Positions 27,041 through 51,175 of a DNA stretch of 55,835 bases are shown here, piece by piece. This DNA comes from Thermodesulfovibrionales bacterium (GTDB lineage Bacteria > Nitrospirota > Thermodesulfovibrionia > Thermodesulfovibrionales > SM23-35). The position numbers were made by a program, and so were the translations under genes. The stretch covers positions 1-55,835 of the forward strand of contig JAVHLL010000017.1 of assembly GCA_031082155.1 (NCBI GenBank), in the 5' to 3' direction. The notes beneath the pieces were generated by a model. That model saw only the letters and a list, made by a program, of their open reading frames with translations, made no database searches and was not told the origin of the DNA. How positions within the stretch are numbered: position 1 is the stretch's first letter; each line of letters starts with the position of its first letter.

Positions 27041-27808
27041 TCATATTCTGATCGTATCGCCGTCCTTCAGTATTTTCAGATGTCTCAACAGAAGCTTCCG
27101 GAGTTCCACGCTAATTCTTCGAGAATACTGCGGTTTAAGGTGTGTGACGTAGACACGTCGAGGTTTGCAGGGCATATGCTTGATTTCTTCCCCTAATAAA
27201 TCCGGCGTTAAATGTCCTGTTGTAATTGCGAGTTCCCGCATGTTGTTCGGAAAGGAAACATCGATAATAAGGGCATCGAGCTGTCTCTTCCCTGCTTGCT
27301 TCCATGTCTGTCGTGTCGGACCGGTATCGCCGGTGTAGAAAAACAGTTTCCCCCCCCTGTCTTCGACAAGATACCCAACAGCCGGGACGGGATGGTTTAC
27401 TTTGTAAGGGGTTACAGAGTACCCGTTCACCGTAATCGTCCTCCCGGCCTTCAGTGGGGTAAGATTGAGAATAGCCTCCTTGGGATTCGGTAAGAGAGTG
27501 AAATCCGGCCACACTTCACTATTAAAAAGATGGTTCCTGATTGTCCTGATTACAGGGGCAATGCTGTAGAGTGTGATGATACGCCCTTTGTTTCCTACAA
27601 TAATATTATCGGCAAGAAACGGGATACTCAGAATATGATCAAGATGAGCATGGGTAATAAATATATGTTTAATTTTTAACTGCGCTTTTCTATCGAGGAC
27701 ATTTGTAATGCTTCCTGCATCAAATACGATTTCTTTATCGAGGAGGAAGGAAGGAGGGTTGTGTCCCGGAAACTCAGCACCCGAACAGCCGATGACTTTG
27801 ATCTTCAT
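27041..27808 (-). CDS. Metallo-beta-lactamase-fold hydrolase (cAMP phosphodiesterase class II / RNase Z-like)
   Basis: A 255-residue MBL-fold protein. The metal motif THAHLDH lies at 52-58, followed by FYTGDTGPT near 155 and later THLKPQY. The N-terminal VIGCSGAEFPGHNPPSFLLD resembles class II cyclic-nucleotide phosphodiesterases (PdeB-like, 3',5'-cyclic-nucleotide phosphodiesterase). If that is right it could degrade the product of the cyclase encoded at 31 kb, though the two genes are not in one operon. RNase Z is less likely because its characteristic flexible arm is missing. The promoter region is shared with the divergent riboswitch operon. Confidence 0.75.
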   Translation of the reverse strand: MKIKVIGCSGAEFPGHNPPSFLLDKEIVFDAGSITNVLDRKAQLKIKHIFITHAHLDHILSIPFLADNIIVGNKGRIITLYSIAPVIRTIRNHLFNSEVWPDFTLLPNPKEAILNLTPLKAGRTITVNGYSVTPYKVNHPVPAVGYLVEDRGGKLFFYTGDTGPTRQTWKQAGKRQLDALIIDVSFPNNMRELAITTGHLTPDLLGEEIKHMPCKPRRVYVTHLKPQYSRRISVELRKLLLRHLKILKDGDTIRI

Positions 27809-28071: not shown

Positions 28072-28161
28072 ATTCCCGATAACGCCGTATCCTTCGTGAG
28101 GGGGGGACGGAAAGCGACGGGTGCTGAATAAAACAAAGCACAGCCGGGCTGCCGAAGGAAT
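28072..28161 (+). ncRNA. Cyclic di-GMP-I riboswitch (GEMM-I type)
   Basis: Ordered hallmarks of the GEMM-I motif. A closing stem P1 is formed by ATTCC (28072-28076) and GGAAT (28157-28161). Stem P2 is CCTTC/GGGGG, capped by a GNRA tetraloop GTGA (28091-28104). The conserved block GGGACGGAAAGCGACGGG (28103-28120) differs at two bases from the common GGGACGCAAAGCCACGGG. Stem P3 is GTGCT/AGCAC (28121-28141), followed by the signature CAGCCGGGCTGCCGAAG. The 3' P1 strand contains GAAGGA, the SD of the ATG at 28163, so folding of P1 should control translation of the PP2C gene. Pattern reading only; no covariance model was run. Confidence 0.82.
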
Positions 28162-28162
28162 C

Positions 28163-28978
28163 ATGAAGCCGCAGTCCGGTTTTTTTTTGGTCATCATAAC
28201 ATTCCGGTATGGGCTTGATAGAGTGAAAGCTGCATATTACATGCATCATGGGCTGCGTACACTACAAGAGGACTGCGTCTTTATCAACGGGAAGATCTTT
28301 CAGAACTCTCTCTTTAAGAATATTTTGCTCACTACCATTCTCTCAAAAAAGGGGCTGTTTGCTGTCTGTGACGGCATAGGTGGGCGTGATGCCGGTGAAT
28401 GGGCGAGCAGATATGTATGCGAAAAACTCGGCGAGAACTTGCACCTTTCCAGTTCCTCGCCGGAAATCATCGAGGATATTTTTCGTATGATACAGCACCA
28501 GATCGAAGGAGAACAGGTCAAGAACAGCGGTACCACTGTTGCCGGCGTTGTTCTTGATAATGGCAAAACCGGAATCTTCAATGCAGGAGACAGCAGAGTG
28601 TATAAAATCACCCATGAGCAAATTCTCCGCATGTCCCATGACCACTCACTCCTTCAGACGAATATTGACAGGGGTTATTTAACAGCGGATCAGGCATCCT
28701 CCTATGCATTTAAACATATAATAGAATTCGGAATTGGGGGCGTATTTCAACAGGAGTGGAAGAACGGCGACAAGAATCTCTATATCAGAGAAGATGTGCT
28801 GCAACAAAATGAGTGCTATCTGATTTGCTCCGACGGGGTTTATGATGTCTTGAAAGACGAAGAAATCTTTGCTATCTTACATCAGGCTCCCTTTGCCGGA
28901 ACAACCGACCTGGTAGCATGCATCAAAGAACGAATGAAGGATAATTTCAGTTTTATCTTGATCGGAAACGATTCATAA
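28163..28978 (+). CDS. PP2C-family Ser/Thr phosphatase
   Basis: A 271-residue PPM phosphatase. Motifs: LRTLQEDC (the usual R..NED place, here QED), GLFAVCDGIGG with the metal-binding Asp, GTTVAGVV, NAGDSRVYK, CSDGVYD and the C-terminal DNFSFILI. The Mn/Mg ligands are therefore present. The ATG at 28163, with GAAGGA upstream inside the riboswitch, is the best start; a GTG at 28121 would lie within the riboswitch RNA. The kinase gene starts directly after the stop. Such PP2C/kinase pairs usually act on the same phosphoproteins. Confidence 0.88.
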   Translation: MKPQSGFFLVIITFRYGLDRVKAAYYMHHGLRTLQEDCVFINGKIFQNSLFKNILLTTILSKKGLFAVCDGIGGRDAGEWASRYVCEKLGENLHLSSSSPEIIEDIFRMIQHQIEGEQVKNSGTTVAGVVLDNGKTGIFNAGDSRVYKITHEQILRMSHDHSLLQTNIDRGYLTADQASSYAFKHIIEFGIGGVFQQEWKNGDKNLYIREDVLQQNECYLICSDGVYDVLKDEEIFAILHQAPFAGTTDLVACIKERMKDNFSFILIGNDS

Positions 28979-30964
28979 ATGGAAATCGAATCTGCCGCAA
29001 AACTCATAAAGAGTGTCCTCCCGACTTATGAAGTGAAAGAAGTAATCGGGGAAGGCTCTTTTGGCGCTGTTTTCAGAATAAAGGATGAACTCAAGGAAAG
29101 GGCGGCAAAAATCATCCTGCTCAGCGCATCACCCACCATTGAAGGAGGAAAGGTTGTCAGCGCTGAGGTAAAAATTGAGCGGGATTTCAGGCATATCGTC
29201 GAAAATTATGAGCGTATTAAGTGCGATGAAATCGTCAGCGTATATGATTTTTACAAAGTTATCGACGGCGAGAATACAAGAAAAGAAACAGCATATGCCA
29301 TAGTCGTCATGGAACTCTATCCGTCCAACCTGCTCCTTTACCTGGTTGATTATTTCAAAAAGAACAATCGTTCATTGCCTGTTGAAACAGCACAATTGAT
29401 CATCGAAAAACTTGCGCAATTGCTCGGCAATCTTTACATAAAAAGGGGATTTCTCTTTGAAGACCTTAAACCTGACAATATCCTGATAAAAGATTTGGGC
29501 AGCGATGTCAAAATCGTTGTCGGAGACATCGGAGGCCTAAAAAATCTTGGAAGCGCTTCGACAACAAGTTCCCAGGTCACCCTTTCCTATTGTGCTGCAG
29601 AGGTCCTCAGGAGAGGACAGAAACCCGATTTGCGTTCCATAATTTATTCTTATGGACTTATCAGCTACCTTATCCTGGAAGGTCATCTTCCCTACGAAAC
29701 TCACGGCATTAATGACCGTATAGAGTTGATTAAAGAAAAGGGGCTTCTATATGAACGCGAAGATATTCCTGAACAACTGAAAAAAATCATCGGGAAATGC
29801 GTTGCTTTTTCCCCTGAAAGCCGCTACAGCGATTTCAACGAAATTATCGATGCCCTCCATGGAAAAACTTATCGGGAAAGAAACATGTTCAGTGAGGAAA
29901 CAATCACACTCGGAAGCCTGAAGAATGAGACCGAAGCTCCTTCAAGACCTCCTGTGGAGCCCCGGCAATCATTTTACAGGACGATACTTCCGGGCGACGC
30001 ACGATTAGGGATGACAGGGTCGCTTTCGCAGATGATCACCGCCGAGAAGAAGCGCGCTGTTTCGGTCAGGCTTTATGATAATCAGGACGCTATCGATAAA
30101 GTTGACAAGGAGATCCGGGACTTTGTAGTACGGGGTGGGGATGTGTACAAAATTCAGGGAGAGAGCCTGAAGGTCTACGGGGACATAATAGTCGAACGAA
30201 AAGCCCTGCTGATCATTGAGGATGCAACGCTGTATTTTGACGAAGATTCCGGCATTGTTTCATTTGGAACAATAAGAGCTACCGGTTCCTCTTTTAGCGC
30301 AATCGATTATGCGAAAAAATGGAACAATATCGTTCTAAATCCCCAGGGCACGCGAATAACCTCCATCAAAGATTGTAAAATCAGCTTCGGGAAAGGCAGA
30401 ACGTGGAAATCACTCAAGACTTTTTTCGGTGACAGAACCTATCCGCTCAATGATGAGTATCATTATGGTGGCGGGATCTTCATCGTTGATATCACCGAAA
30501 AGAATATCTCTATTCACAATTGTACGATTTCCAAATGCTCCGCCCATTCAGGCGGCGCAATTTTCTGTTTGAATGCGGAACCCGCAATAGAAAATAGTGT
30601 CTTTCAGAATTGTTTCGCACTCCTTTCAGGCGGCGGATTCGCATGTCACCGGATGAATCCTGTGATACGGAATTGCAGATTCCTCAACTGTTCTTCCAAA
30701 AAGGAAGGTGGCGGGATGTTCTGCTCCCAATCGCATCCGATTGTCGAAAACTGCATGTTCCAGAATTGTTCAACCAGTTATCTCTATGGCGGCGGTATAT
30801 ATTGTTCCCAGGCAAATCCTCAACTCAAAGGGTGTAAATTCAATACCTGTACTGCGGTCAAAGACGGCGGGGCAGTATATTGTGACATCAAGAGCCATCC
30901 AAGGATACTGTATCCGCAGTTCACAAACTGCAAACCAAGCAATACAAATTGTGCGTTACAATAG
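28979..30964 (+). CDS. Ser/Thr protein kinase fused to a right-handed beta-helix domain
   Basis: A 661-residue protein with no signal peptide or membrane helix. The kinase (about 18-295) shows the glycine loop GEGSFGAV (24-31), Lys44 and the catalytic loop FEDLKPDN, where Asp162 and Asn167 are kept but HRD is FED. The metal motif is DIG (Asp183) instead of DFG. After a proline-rich linker (about 310-345) comes a beta-rich segment (370-490), then six coils of about 23-26 residues (495-661) with GGG(I/M/F) turns and NC.F.NC motifs like polymorphic outer-membrane protein repeats. The beta-helix may bind a target or scaffold. Confidence 0.85.
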   Translation: MEIESAAKLIKSVLPTYEVKEVIGEGSFGAVFRIKDELKERAAKIILLSASPTIEGGKVVSAEVKIERDFRHIVENYERIKCDEIVSVYDFYKVIDGENTRKETAYAIVVMELYPSNLLLYLVDYFKKNNRSLPVETAQLIIEKLAQLLGNLYIKRGFLFEDLKPDNILIKDLGSDVKIVVGDIGGLKNLGSASTTSSQVTLSYCAAEVLRRGQKPDLRSIIYSYGLISYLILEGHLPYETHGINDRIELIKEKGLLYEREDIPEQLKKIIGKCVAFSPESRYSDFNEIIDALHGKTYRERNMFSEETITLGSLKNETEAPSRPPVEPRQSFYRTILPGDARLGMTGSLSQMITAEKKRAVSVRLYDNQDAIDKVDKEIRDFVVRGGDVYKIQGESLKVYGDIIVERKALLIIEDATLYFDEDSGIVSFGTIRATGSSFSAIDYAKKWNNIVLNPQGTRITSIKDCKISFGKGRTWKSLKTFFGDRTYPLNDEYHYGGGIFIVDITEKNISIHNCTISKCSAHSGGAIFCLNAEPAIENSVFQNCFALLSGGGFACHRMNPVIRNCRFLNCSSKKEGGGMFCSQSHPIVENCMFQNCSTSYLYGGGIYCSQANPQLKGCKFNTCTAVKDGGAVYCDIKSHPRILYPQFTNCKPSNTNCALQ

Positions 30965-30983: not shown

Positions 30984-32339
30984 ATGGAGAAAATGGCTTC
31001 AATGAATCCGGAAGATGATAGTTCCTCAAAAAAAGATCCGACGGTCAGCAGCGCTGACCTTGAAAAATTACTCGAACAGCGGGCCCAACTTGATGAACTG
31101 ATCCAGAAAAAGTTTACCAAGGTTATCACGATCATGTTTACTGACCTGAAAGGATCGACATCGATCGCCGAATCCGAAGGGGATATTGTCAGTCGATTCC
31201 TGATAAAGAGGCATCACGATATTCTTATACCCATTATTAAGCAAAACGGCGGTGTTCTTGTAAAAACCATGGGAGACGGTACGTTGTCATATTTTCAGGA
31301 GGCAGTCGATGGTATTCGCGCCTCTGTAGATATTCAGACGAGCGTTAATGACTACAATAGTACACGAAAGAGTGGGCCCCCTATCCTGCTGCGTATCGGC
31401 CTGAATACCGGCACCGGGATGGTTGAGAGGAGCGATATTTATGGGGACGTGGTGAATACTGCCTCACGCTTCGAGTCCCTGGCAGGTCCTGGTGAAATTT
31501 ACATCTCGGAGAATACCTACGATGCGCTTGGCGAGTCCAGGAATACATTCTACTGTCGTTTTATCAAGGAAAGTACCCTCAAAGAAAAAAAGGGATCGTT
31601 TAAAATTTTCAAGGTATTCTGGGATAACGATGAAATTGAGCGGGACAAATTTATCCTGAATGCCCCTCTCGGCGCAGAGACCGGCCCCAGGACTATAACG
31701 TTTAATGCGTACAGCAGGGCACATCCCGTTGTTGAAGATGAGATGACCCAGGAAGACAATGCGCTCGTGCGGAAAGCCAACCACTATGAAAAAGAACAGG
31801 AATTTCTGAAACTTTTTCTCCTCTGCGAGGATAACCGTAAAAATCCGGGTCTTGAAGAAATGTATCAGAACCTGAAAAACAATCTTGAACGATATGACAA
31901 AATGGATATAAAATTTTTTGACGAGGACGCCATCTGGTTTTTTAAACGGACAATAATCATGGGCAGGGTGTCACTCGCTGATTTCCCCATCTCGAACCAG
32001 GCCCTATCAAGAATCCCGATACGGGTGGGAATAAAAAACGGTGAAGGCTTTCTGGAAGTTGAGAATAAGGGTGCGGAAAAGATCAATACCATCGAGATCG
32101 AAAAACCTGCCGAAACAGTGCCGGTCAGGCCCGGGGTAGAATTTTCCCTGGGGACTACCGGCAAGATTATCTTCTCTGTCTGCTTCCCGATCGAGTTCAG
32201 AGTCTACAAGGACAGGTTCCTTTCCCTGAAGATATTAAATCCGGAAGAATGCATCAGGAAGCACTTCCATGTAAATCTCAACGACATCTGGAAAGAATTC
32301 AACGAAGAGAGCAACAGGATACTCATTATCGGCAAATAG
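30984..32339 (+). CDS. Class III adenylate/guanylate cyclase, soluble, with an unknown C-terminal region
   Basis: A 451-residue cytoplasmic protein. A short helical N-terminus (20-45) leads into the cyclase domain (about 45-215). The metal Asp54 is in FTDLKGST and Asp98 in KTMGDGTLSYF, with the purine-selecting Lys94. The transition-state segment YGDVVNTASRFES is present. Lys94 and the nearby Asp suggest ATP, that is cAMP synthesis, but this is inference. The remaining 230 residues show a helical part and a beta-rich part I do not recognise. The gene follows the kinase by 19 bp and ends 25 bp from the convergent PilB-type gene. Confidence 0.88.
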   Translation: MEKMASMNPEDDSSSKKDPTVSSADLEKLLEQRAQLDELIQKKFTKVITIMFTDLKGSTSIAESEGDIVSRFLIKRHHDILIPIIKQNGGVLVKTMGDGTLSYFQEAVDGIRASVDIQTSVNDYNSTRKSGPPILLRIGLNTGTGMVERSDIYGDVVNTASRFESLAGPGEIYISENTYDALGESRNTFYCRFIKESTLKEKKGSFKIFKVFWDNDEIERDKFILNAPLGAETGPRTITFNAYSRAHPVVEDEMTQEDNALVRKANHYEKEQEFLKLFLLCEDNRKNPGLEEMYQNLKNNLERYDKMDIKFFDEDAIWFFKRTIIMGRVSLADFPISNQALSRIPIRVGIKNGEGFLEVENKGAEKINTIEIEKPAETVPVRPGVEFSLGTTGKIIFSVCFPIEFRVYKDRFLSLKILNPEECIRKHFHVNLNDIWKEFNEESNRILIIGK

Positions 32340-32364: not shown

Positions 32365-34329
32365 TTATACAGCCCCCCCCATTTCACAGAGTGCGATTAG
32401 CTCCTCAGAAGAGTATGGGGACTGGGTATCGCTTTCATGGAAATTGACGAGGCGTAACACTTCCTCAAGTGAAGTTATTCCTCTGGTAGCCTTATAGAAT
32501 CCGTCCTCCTGTATGGATATGAGTCCGGAGGTCTGACGGGCAAGTGCCCTGATCTTGCTCGAAGGAACCCTCTGCAGAAGCGCATCACGGATTTCGTCGT
32601 TTATAAGCATAATTTCGCTGATTGCGGTACGACCTTTGTATCCGGTATTATTGCACTCAAGACATCCATTTGCAGTATAGAATGTATGATTATCGAGGTT
32701 TATCGGACGGATACTTCTGAAGGAATTGAGTATATCGTTGCTCGGTGTATACGCTACTCTGCAGCTCGGACAGAGAACCCTCACAAGCCGCTGCGCCATA
32801 ACCGACATGACTGTGGAGGAGATGAGAAAAGTCTCGATGCCGATTTCGAACATACGCAGGAGCGCACCGCTTGTGTCGTCGGTATGAAAAGAAGTCAGTA
32901 TCTTGTGGCCGGTAAGCGCGGTCTCAATAACTGCTTTGGCCGAATCCCTGTCTCGTATCTCACCGATCATAATGACATCAGGGTCTTGTCGCAGTACCGA
33001 TTTGACGAAATTCGCATAGGTAAGCCCGGTTCTATCGCTAATTTGACCCTGCACTACCCCCTGTATCGTATATTCAATAGGGTCCTCCATGGTCACTATC
33101 TTTTTGTCCATCCCCCCCAGATGGAGTATTGCTGCATACAGGGTCGTTGTCTTGCCGCAGTTGCTCGGTCCGGTGACCATAATGATGCCCGAGGGGATTT
33201 CGAGCATTTGTCTGAATATGTAGAGGTTTGTCGGGGAAAACCCCAGCATATCGAGATCCATCACGTTGCTCTGGTTGGGCAGCACACGAATTGCAATACT
33301 CTCCCCGCCCAGAGATGCATAGGTCGAAACCCTCAGGTCGAAACACCTGTTCATAACTTTTGCTCCGAGTCTGCCGTCCTGATGCCGCCTTCTGTCTGCT
33401 ATGTCCATTCCACAGAGGGCTTTAATCCGGCTGCATAGCGAAAGAGCAAGAGATATTGGCAGGTCTGTTTTATGGTGCAGTACTCCGTCTATACGGTACC
33501 GCACCCTTAGCATGTTTTCCATAGGCTCTATATGAATATCACTGGCCCTTTCCTGTAAGGCATTGGATACGATAAAGTTCACGACGTCGATGATATTATC
33601 TTCGTCGCGCTTAAACGCAACCGAATCCCCGATAACAAGGTTTTTATAGGGATTGCGTGCTTCCTTGTCCCAGGCAGTATTGTCTGTTATGCGTATGTCT
33701 TCATAAATCAGTTTCAGTGCCTTATTAATATCATCTGAACTTGCAATTGCCGCTTCTATTTTGCACTTGAATACGTTTTTCATGGTATTGATCGTCTCTT
33801 CCGAGAGGGGGTCGCTCATAATCACGGTGACCACATCACCATCACGGTATATAGGAAGACATTCGTTCTTCTGGAGAAAAGCCCTGCTGATCCCTTTCAG
33901 AAGACTTGGATCAATGATCCCAATCGTCGGGATAATTTTAGGGATACCGAGTTGTGTGCTCAGGGAGTTGATCAAATTTGCTTCTGTGATAAAACCATTT
34001 TCTATAAGGATCTTGCCAAGTCTTTTTTCTTCAATTCTCTGGATTTCGAGGGCATGGTCAATTTCTTCCTGACTTAGCAATCCCATATTCACCAACAGTT
34101 CACCGAGAAACACTCGTTTCTTGTGCTTTTTCAGGATATCCTTGAGTTCAGCACGCGAGAGAAATCTTAATCTCACGCACATCTCACCAAGCGGCACATA
34201 CGTCCTCTGCTTCAGCTGAGAAGCGAGCGCATCCTGAAGTTGCTTTTCAGAGACGTATCCCTCCTCGACAAGCAGTTCTCCGATTAATACTTTCCTCTCT
34301 TCTTTTCCTTTCGGTTTGCATGATTCCAT
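32365..34329 (-). CDS. PilB/GspE-type secretion or pilus ATPase with four MshEN-like repeats
   Basis: A 654-residue type II secretion/type IV pilus assembly ATPase. The N-terminus has four copies of a 29-31 residue pattern (starts near 16, 47, 75 and 104; for example LGELLVNMGLLSQ), like MshEN units that bind c-di-GMP. A T2SSE_N domain follows. The ATPase has RASDIHIEP, Walker A GPSNCGKTTT (about 385-394, with Asn-Cys for the usual Gly-Ser), VIMIGEIRD (Walker B), HTDDTSGA, and a zinc motif of CPSC and CLEC. No other pilus gene is near. Confidence 0.88.
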   Translation of the reverse strand: MESCKPKGKEERKVLIGELLVEEGYVSEKQLQDALASQLKQRTYVPLGEMCVRLRFLSRAELKDILKKHKKRVFLGELLVNMGLLSQEEIDHALEIQRIEEKRLGKILIENGFITEANLINSLSTQLGIPKIIPTIGIIDPSLLKGISRAFLQKNECLPIYRDGDVVTVIMSDPLSEETINTMKNVFKCKIEAAIASSDDINKALKLIYEDIRITDNTAWDKEARNPYKNLVIGDSVAFKRDEDNIIDVVNFIVSNALQERASDIHIEPMENMLRVRYRIDGVLHHKTDLPISLALSLCSRIKALCGMDIADRRRHQDGRLGAKVMNRCFDLRVSTYASLGGESIAIRVLPNQSNVMDLDMLGFSPTNLYIFRQMLEIPSGIIMVTGPSNCGKTTTLYAAILHLGGMDKKIVTMEDPIEYTIQGVVQGQISDRTGLTYANFVKSVLRQDPDVIMIGEIRDRDSAKAVIETALTGHKILTSFHTDDTSGALLRMFEIGIETFLISSTVMSVMAQRLVRVLCPSCRVAYTPSNDILNSFRSIRPINLDNHTFYTANGCLECNNTGYKGRTAISEIMLINDEIRDALLQRVPSSKIRALARQTSGLISIQEDGFYKATRGITSLEEVLRLVNFHESDTQSPYSSEELIALCEMGGAV

Positions 34330-34660: not shown

Positions 34661-35518
34661 TCATGACACATCCAGCAGAGAGACATGCATGATCATCTCT
34701 TCTGTGGTGCTCTTGAGCTGAGCACAGCTCTTTGCGTTCTGTATCGCAATGGAAGCATACATGGCAAGGGAACGAAGCATTTTAAGGTCTTCGAGTGTGA
34801 ATAATTTGTTCGAACTGTTGCTCATATTGAGAGTCCCGATGCTGGTCTTCCACTTGAGTGGCACACAGAGCATGGATGCAATTTTTGCAGATCCTGACTT
34901 GAACCGTGCGTCCTGTGAAACGCTGTTGATCAGTTCAGCCTTGCCGGTCTTCAGCACATCTCCGGCAACACCTTCTCCAACCCGGAGTTTGATCTTCGGA
35001 TTCCACTCCTTCCCGAAGGCCGATCTTACCAGGAGATTCTCTCCGTCTTCGTCAAGGAGCATGATCGAACCGTTTTCAGCGGGTATGACGTTTTTTGCTT
35101 CTTCGAGAATGTACTCACAGGTCTCATCGATATCTGTACAGATGTTCAATCTCTTCTTCTTCACCTGAATCAGTTCGTCATCGAGCCTCCTGATCCTGGA
35201 ACTCATGGACGAAATGATTCTGAACGCGAGAGTCGGGTCTCTGCTTATGGTCTGAAAAAGCTTTTCCTTGTCAATACTCAGCACCCTGGTGTTGTCCATC
35301 GCAGTGGCAGTGGCGGAACGCGGCAGCTTGTCAAACAATGCCATTTCTCCGAAAATATCTCCGCTTTCGAGAGTTGCAATGGTCATATCCCCTGTCCGGG
35401 ACTTTTTCGTTATCTTCACCCTTCCTGCCTGAATAACATACAGCCGGTCGCCTTCCTGCCCTTCCCGGAAGATCTGCTCCCCTTCGGAATACATCCTGCC
35501 CAGTTCATCTTCTCTCAT
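34661..35518 (-). CDS. Cyclic-nucleotide-binding and GAF domain protein
   Basis: A 285-residue protein: a cNMP-binding domain (about 8-115) with the phosphate-binding cassette FGEMALFDKLPRSATATA (Glu58, Arg67, Ser68), a helix, and a GAF domain (about 130-270). The cassette keeps the Arg that holds the cyclic phosphate, so cAMP or cGMP binding is likely. No DNA-binding helix-turn-helix is present, so it is not a CRP-type transcription factor. Its stop is preceded by a conserved-looking tail of Met and Ser. It overlaps the FAD oxidoreductase gene by 4 bp. It is a candidate receptor for the cyclase encoded 2.3 kb away. Confidence 0.87.
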   Translation of the reverse strand: MREDELGRMYSEGEQIFREGQEGDRLYVIQAGRVKITKKSRTGDMTIATLESGDIFGEMALFDKLPRSATATAMDNTRVLSIDKEKLFQTISRDPTLAFRIISSMSSRIRRLDDELIQVKKKRLNICTDIDETCEYILEEAKNVIPAENGSIMLLDEDGENLLVRSAFGKEWNPKIKLRVGEGVAGDVLKTGKAELINSVSQDARFKSGSAKIASMLCVPLKWKTSIGTLNMSNSSNKLFTLEDLKMLRSLAMYASIAIQNAKSCAQLKSTTEEMIMHVSLLDVS

Positions 35519-50053: not shown

Positions 50054-51175
50054 TTAGAACCTCAGGAATGCTCCGATATTGCCGGCTTCCTTGAGTTTTT
50101 TGTTTTTGTCAACGACTTCAACCAACGCTCCCTGTTCAACAGCCTTCTGGGCAATGAGATCGACGATATACTTGACCTTCTGCATTTTCCCCTTGCAATA
50201 AGGACATGAAGCAATATCATGAGAATTCAGATATCCGCACTGGCTGCAGGATTTCCCTGACAGCTTGAAGTCTTTCAGCATGACCAGTTTCATGATGCGG
50301 CCTTCCTGGAGTGCATTCAGCACGTCTTCGACGCCGAGCACGGCATTCTCATTCTTCAGCGCCTTGGCGACCATCTCATCAACGTCTTCCTCCTCCCTCT
50401 TTTCTTCAAATGACATGAGGATCGGCTCCGCCTTATCCAGAATATCCTTGCTCCTTGCTGACATGTCTGCCTGGAATGTGCCGATGACTTTATCAGCCAT
50501 GGATTGCGAGAGCATGGCCCTTACCTTTGTCAACGCCTCTTCGGAACCTCCGATTAGCAGCCTGCCGACATATTCACCGGAGAGAAACGAATCCAGCTTT
50601 TTCAGAACATCCTTCAGGTGCATGCTCACATGGTAATCGATATGCCGTTCATAGCTTTTCTCCGAAAGGGCGAACCATCCGCCTTTTTTATGCCTGGCGG
50701 GCACATTCTCACTGTGGACCTCGGCGTACTCTTCAATTTCTCCCAGGTGCACCAGGAATAACCGTGCTGAGTCCCTGCCGACGAGCAGAATGGCATACCT
50801 CTGGTAATTGTCAAGGACGCCGAACAGTGGTTTTATGTAAGGGATCTGATCAACAATGATTTCATTCCTGAGAGGAACTGACAGATGGAACTCTTTCCAG
50901 AATTTGCTCTCCTGAGAACTCAGGAGCGCAAGCCCCTTTTTGAAAATCCTTTTATTGGAGAGGAGATATGATTCAATCTTTTCGAGATCAGCGCTGATCC
51001 TTTTCAAGACCGGCTTCGAGAGTTGCTCGGTTGTCTGTTTCAGCATATTCTTTACATGAATACCATAATTATCCTTTACATTCGTTATGGGATTCACATT
51101 CAGATAGAGGCTCACAAAATAGGCGCCGTCACCCCGCATCTTCGCTATCTCTTTGAGTTCTTCCCTGTTAAGCAT
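50054..51175 (-). CDS. Bacterial eRF1-like protein (baeRF family) with a C-terminal zinc ribbon
   Basis: A 373-residue protein of the bacterial archaeo-eukaryotic release factor family. The N-domain is 1-115. The central domain has KKGGW (164-167) and YERHIDYH, at the place of the GGQ loop of release factors, and the LLIGGSEEAL segment near 215 is typical. A C-terminal zinc ribbon CSQC...CPYC (about 318-335) follows. Residues after GGW are FALSEKS, so the usual downstream Gln is absent. These proteins may hydrolyse peptidyl-tRNA on stalled or hibernating ribosomes. Confidence 0.78.
   Translation of the reverse strand: MLNREELKEIAKMRGDGAYFVSLYLNVNPITNVKDNYGIHVKNMLKQTTEQLSKPVLKRISADLEKIESYLLSNKRIFKKGLALLSSQESKFWKEFHLSVPLRNEIIVDQIPYIKPLFGVLDNYQRYAILLVGRDSARLFLVHLGEIEEYAEVHSENVPARHKKGGWFALSEKSYERHIDYHVSMHLKDVLKKLDSFLSGEYVGRLLIGGSEEALTKVRAMLSQSMADKVIGTFQADMSARSKDILDKAEPILMSFEEKREEEDVDEMVAKALKNENAVLGVEDVLNALQEGRIMKLVMLKDFKLSGKSCSQCGYLNSHDIASCPYCKGKMQKVKYIVDLIAQKAVEQGALVEVVDKNKKLKEAGNIGAFLRF

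Follow-up and report, generated by a model that had tools for sequence, protein, structure and literature searches.

A soluble Ser/Thr kinase with a C-terminal beta-helix, encoded beside PP2C phosphatase and class III cyclase genes in a Thermodesulfovibrionales bacterium

Previous studies have described bacterial Ser/Thr kinases that are joined to solenoid domains or coupled to other signaling proteins. In Nostoc sp. PCC 7120, a Ser/Thr kinase and a Pfam pectinesterase are found in one protein (gi 17229994), and certain kinases of Synechocystis and Nostoc carry C-terminal pentapeptide repeats (PMC1262709). Kinase + beta-helix-class fusions, kinase-PP2C pairs and kinase-cyclase couplings are all already known. 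Here, we describe a protein in which these known parts are combined in a way that is new, rare and genuine, encoded in a 55,835-nucleotide stretch of DNA from a Thermodesulfovibrionales bacterium (the window). Its gene (28979..30964, + strand) begins with ATG and specifies 661 amino acids in one uninterrupted frame, comprising a Hanks-type kinase (residues 17-289), a disordered linker and a predicted right-handed parallel beta-helix (about 377-655), in that order.

Each of the described systems resembles this locus in part. The Nostoc kinase-pectinesterase, compared here by its description, likewise links a Ser/Thr kinase with a beta-helix-class domain, but the helix of the window protein lacks a Pfam match, is built of Pmp-like GG/FxxC coils, and is genetically linked to a PP2C and a cyclase. 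The cyanobacterial pentapeptide kinases also end in a right-handed solenoid; theirs is four-sided with 5-residue repeats, whereas the coils here span 25-27 residues. Chlamydial Pmp repeats (PMC10715098, PMC11166332) are similar in combining GG-A/G with FxxN-type coils in a parallel beta-helix, yet Pmp proteins are secreted autotransporters with an Asn ladder, while the window protein is predicted to be cytoplasmic, has FxxC in place of FxxN, and is fused to a kinase. A Hanks kinase gene beside a PP2C gene recalls the Stk/Stp pairs of the PknB/Stp1 type. In contrast to those kinases, the window kinase has neither PASTA domains nor a membrane segment, contains FED and DIG motifs, and belongs to a cassette with a cyclase; it scores 65.9 of 450 bits against the Stk1/PknB PASTA kinase model NF033483. 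Finally, the TOMM kinase/cyclase fusion (TIGR03903) and Myxococcus Pkn2 (PMC1262709) couple a Hanks kinase to a class III cyclase by fusion, whereas in the window the coupling is by adjacent genes, and TIGR03903 scores there are 15.6 and 18.2 against a cut-off of 705.75. A literature search by name for kinase/beta-helix fusions turned up nothing direct, and the literature searched held no description of this combination, of the FED/DIG/Ile221 signature, or of the cysteine ladder discussed below.

Full-length orthologs with the whole architecture are encoded in two other genomes of the same order, each from a different family: one in G102 (676 aa, 45% identity) and one in G112 (710 aa, 44% identity), the latter with one extra coil in its helix. 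Coil number is the usual way in which solenoids vary. Because these orthologs share the full architecture, a frameshift or misassembly joining two genes near 30000-30400, which the first-pass annotation had named as one of two things that would refute its reading, is excluded; G+C content is also unbroken across the joint (kinase 42.7%, helix 44.8%). The full-length protein occurs in 3/176 genomes of the order, and 396 genomes sampled evenly across the phylum yielded no further full-length copy. A single-sequence scan of genome contigs returned one distant kinase only, viral contigs yielded no relative, and plasmid matches were confined to the kinase or the helix. We therefore reject an origin in a virus or plasmid. 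From these searches, the family appears to be rare, or to have spread via transfer and loss. Elsewhere in the window genome there is one more clear Pkinase, together with two matches below the threshold.

Pfam assigns Pkinase to residues 17-289 (E 4e-27), the only other match above cut-off in the 661-aa protein being the overlapping PK_Tyr_Ser-Thr. There is no signal peptide, the kinase is N-terminal, and none of the three orthologs contains a 19-residue segment hydrophobic enough to cross a membrane. The absence of such a segment led us to reject a membrane kinase with its helix outside. The earlier claim that this is a soluble, cytoplasmic kinase + beta-helix protein is borne out.

The kinase domain (29027..29845, +) covers positions 1-257 of the 263 in profile PF00069, scoring 95.7 bits against a cut-off of 31.7. 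An alignment of the three orthologs to which 26 other bacterial kinases were added shows that the family retains the glycine loop, beta3 Lys44, catalytic Asp162, Lys164, Asn167 and metal-binding Asp183, as well as Glu208 (the Glu of APE) and Arg282; Lys44, Asp162, Asn167 and Asp183 are invariant among the orthologs. In all three proteins, HRD is replaced by FED, DFG by DIG, and the alphaF Asp by Ile221. The motif changes and the four invariant residues lie where the first-pass annotation had placed them; the lost alphaF Asp was missing from its list. In kinases generally, the HRD backbone is anchored by the alphaF Asp, so the disappearance of both is in keeping with a concerted remodeling of this anchor. 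At the usual spacing of the alphaC Glu, all three orthologs have Ile73. An invariant Glu67 lies inside a longer predicted alphaC helix (62-79) and may be a replacement, and this unusual spacing leaves room for weak activity. An AlphaFold2 (AF2) run on the kinase domain alone, with 23 kinases in the alignment, gave pLDDT 86 and pTM 0.84, and VIA-align superimposes the model on active kinases such as CDK2/cyclin A with Z 25-26. With FED, DIG, Ile221 and Ile73 in every ortholog, the domain departs from the canonical RD type; since the altered positions are regulatory and not catalytic, we file it as a divergent Hanks kinase. It is likely to be a catalytically active kinase of non-RD type, on the strength of its residues and its model. 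The earlier suggestion that it is slow or specially regulated is possible, although all catalytic residues are kept and the model matches active kinases.

The predicted beta-helix (30107..30943, +) comes from a full-length AF2 run on the alignment of three orthologs, in which the kinase part was poor. Strands recur in solenoid rhythm over residues of about 377-655, with pLDDT mostly 70-96. VIA-align matches the helix to right-handed parallel beta-helices in the PDB with Z 16-21, rmsd about 3 and identity 8-16%, among them a GH87 glucanase, a phage tailspike, Rhombotarget A and PL6, with Z about 20, as well as pectate lyases; a PDB sequence search with the helix gave one weak match only (E 0.055). 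We can thus assign the C-terminal region with good confidence to the right-handed parallel beta-helix type, as far as a predicted model allows. The first-pass annotation had left its helix to stand or fall with the presence of a solenoid in a predicted structure, and the solenoid is there. Its description of the coils holds less exactly. There are indeed six GG coils (30467..30943, +), but four are GGG and two GGA, and the exact NCxFxNC string occurs just twice; what recurs is [FI]xxC, six times at intervals of 25-27 residues, as a ladder at residues 517, 542, 568, 594, 621 and 648. Similarly, its likeness to polymorphic outer membrane proteins extends to the type of coil, but not to the score of Chlam_PMP (14.5 bits, below the cut-off of 20.6) or to an autotransporter domain, for which Pfam found no match in the 661-aa protein, and not to a signal peptide.

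The cysteines of the helix can be compared with the asparagines of Pmp-type proteins, where FxxN supplies the Asn residues of a ladder that is buried and hydrogen-bonded at turn T2 (PMC10715098). At the fourth position of this motif, the three kinase orthologs have Cys in 16/19 coils and Asn in 0, whereas eight other helix proteins of the phylum have Asn in 49/76 and Cys in 3/76. The contrast is strong (Fisher P 1.5e-12), with the caveat that coils within one protein are not independent and that the control counts were made by an automatic rule. Cysteines outside FxxC are mostly unshared between orthologs (10 in the G102 protein, 15 in the G112 protein). Since FxxC falls on the buried Asn-ladder position and the other cysteines are mostly unconserved, what fits better than a metal site or redox switch is that these are buried packing residues, which would form a structural Cys ladder replacing the Asn ladder of secreted relatives.

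The neighbors of the kinase gene, which the first-pass annotation did not mention, say most about function. Upstream lies a gene for a PP2C (Stp1-like) phosphatase (28121..28978, +), identified by Pfam and NCBIfam, whose stop codon runs directly up to the kinase ATG; its true start is uncertain, with homology from about 28217. In G112, a 49% identical PP2C is encoded 8 bases upstream of the kinase, and strong orthologs of this phosphatase were detected by its profile in the window genome and G112 only. Downstream, 19 bases past the kinase stop, begins a gene for a class III adenylyl/guanylyl cyclase (30984..32339, +; Pfam Guanylate_cyc 4e-19). A cyclase with about 41-43% identity starts 3 bases past the kinase in G102 and continues on another contig. 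Among the three orthologs, only that of the window has all three genes side by side. The identified flanks of the cassette are housekeeping or general bacterial genes, and its surroundings are ordinary chromosome.

The cyclase comprises a catalytic region (31107-31592), a T-I-T-F motif (31692-31703) and a conserved C-terminal domain (31740-32336), all on the + strand and placed with the help of relatives and alignments. FHA domains, one or two per protein, occur in several relatives of this cyclase, with E values as low as 5e-38. FHA domains are readers of phospho-Thr, with a preference at the third residue after it. Neither the window cyclase, in Pfam searches, nor the window genome, over the Pfam cut-off, contains a match to FHA. 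Comparison of the cyclase C-terminal domain with FHA by hhalign brings Gly-Arg and Ser-Arg pairs into register, with a probability of only 35%, and a PDB search with the profile of this domain gave nothing useful. Cyclase relatives adjoin other kinases in two genomes (G117:C56 and G053:C95), and in G111 one lies near a PP2C. In G053, a single protein (L083:8066-9826) combines HEPN_Swt1, a class III cyclase and two FHA domains; the kinase directly beside it has N-terminal repeats of DEATVM/DESTVM. Another kinase-cyclase gene pair lies in G117 (L081:6428-10715), where the gene after that of an FHA-cyclase encodes 829 aa with a hydrophobic stretch in the N-terminal part and a kinase in the C-terminal part.

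A short motif is common to the kinase and the cyclase. The kinase linker (residues about 296-367; 29864..30079, +), with AF2 pLDDT <50 at residues 297-367, contains the sequence T308-I-T-L, which conforms to the pattern T-[ILV]-[TD]-[ILVF]. This pattern is found 9 times in the 524 aa of kinase and cyclase linkers, as compared to 5 times in the ORFs of the window (16,652 aa); a count of 9 was attained in 0 of 5000 shuffles, and 26 other kinases, mostly of the same order, have only 2 instances in the 7,441 aa that lie beyond their kinase domains. One caveat is that the pattern was chosen after the sequences had been viewed, so these statistics overstate the case. A motif shared by two different proteins of one operon is nonetheless suggestive of a kinase-cyclase link, and the FHA preference at the third residue after phospho-Thr fits it. 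G112 also encodes a protein (L089:1912-3042) that contains FHA and the cyclase C-terminal domain without the cyclase, and carries TIDLSLFKK, near-identical to TIDLSAFKK in the linker of the G112 kinase. The related pattern T-[IL]-D-L-S-x-F has 5 matches in G112, three of them already known, and 3 in a reversed control. Judged by these sequences, this FHA protein may be an extra partner.

How the cassette works can be proposed in outline, and we lean towards the following model. The kinase/beta-helix gene would be the central member of a cytoplasmic three-gene cassette, flanked by those for the PP2C and the class III cyclase. The soluble kinase would phosphorylate threonines in its own flexible linker and, at T-[ILV]-[TD]-[ILVF] sites of a kind that FHA domains can read, in the linker of the cyclase; the PP2C would strip these phosphates. 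Cyclase activity, and hence a cAMP-type output, would then be set by how far these sites are phosphorylated, or by docking that depends on it. The beta-helix may serve in the cytoplasm as a rigid scaffold, holding the kinase in position and docking a partner or ligand. Direct observations are the conserved architecture, the order of the genes, the retention of catalytic residues, the enrichment of the motif and the FHA domains of cyclase relatives; kinase activity, its substrates, cyclase control and the role of the helix are what we infer.

Other explanations need to be weighed against this model. The protein might be a non-catalytic, pseudokinase-like scaffold that binds nucleotide with little or no phosphorylation, the beta-helix doing the work, as the alteration of five regulatory positions (HRD His, HRD Arg, DFG Phe, alphaF Asp and alphaC FxxE) in all three orthologs could suggest. 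Pseudokinases are defined by loss of the beta3 Lys, HRD-Asp or DFG-Asp (PMC12599244); all of these are present here, along with Lys164, Asn167, Glu208 and Arg282, so the kinase is not a pseudokinase by the usual definition. The abutting PP2C gene would moreover be needless for a dead kinase, and we regard this explanation as unlikely. The first-pass annotation suggested metal binding or redox sensing by the cysteines, and either could in principle control the kinase. This idea draws on their number, 17 in the last 286 residues, and on the recurrence of FxxC across the orthologs. Against it, most of the remaining cysteines are unconserved, the conserved ones occupy the buried Asn-ladder position, and for a packed, buried row in a reducing cytoplasm a structural role is the easier explanation; we therefore find metal or redox control improbable.

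It has also to be asked whether the cassette is an anti-phage defense system related to PD-T4-6, MADS or Pycsar, given its patchy distribution and its matches to PADLOC mad6 (2.6e-33), the PD-T4-6 kinase profile (5e-24) and, weakly, PycC cyclase profiles. These matches are confined to generic kinase and cyclase domains (for mad6, the kinase only), the MADS kinase model NF047741 scores 54.9 of 460 bits, and no partner genes were seen, neither another MADS gene nor an effector. The ordinary flanks and the absence of relatives from viral contigs also count against defense, which we hold to be highly unlikely. That the beta-helix is an enzyme of polysaccharide lyase or hydrolase type, making the protein bifunctional, seems more remote still. 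GH87, PL6 and pectate lyases are among the best structural matches and the Nostoc kinase-pectinesterase offers a precedent (PMC1262709), but identities are low, the matches include non-enzymes, and a cytoplasmic location makes polysaccharide substrates unlikely.

If our model of a kinase/PP2C switch acting on linkers and cyclase is correct, the operon would be a compact system in which a cyclase comes together with a Hanks kinase and the phosphatase of that kinase, so that three proteins, all small and soluble, would allow a test of whether Ser/Thr phosphorylation feeds directly into cyclic nucleotide signaling in bacteria. The kinase would also lend itself to asking how activity is achieved in the absence of HRD-His/Arg and the alphaF Asp, and the FxxN to FxxC swap may mark, at the sequence level, those Pmp-type beta-helices that remain in the reducing cytoplasm. 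A bolder version seems to us doubtful: the protein would represent a soluble kinase family of its own, marked by joint replacement of HRD-His/Arg, DFG-Phe and the alphaF Asp, the Cys-ladder helix would switch kinase activity as a solenoid sensor, and a diverged FHA would relay phospho-Thr to the class III cyclase, forming a phosphorylation-to-cAMP relay.

Finally, several other genes of the window deserve mention. A GspE/PilB-type ATPase with an MshEN domain (32365-34329, -) adjoins the cassette, and a homologue with 50% identity also adjoins the kinase-cyclase pair in G102 (L039). Less than 7 kb from the cyclase are genes for a cNMP-binding plus GAF protein (34661-35518, -) and for a protein of metallo-beta-lactamase fold with a match to PDEase_II, the class II cAMP phosphodiesterases (27041-27808, -). 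Together with the cyclase, these two could form a local cAMP circuit. Farther away, 50054-51175 (-) encodes an eRF1-like protein of the ribosome hibernation factor type, with scores below the NCBIfam cut-offs.
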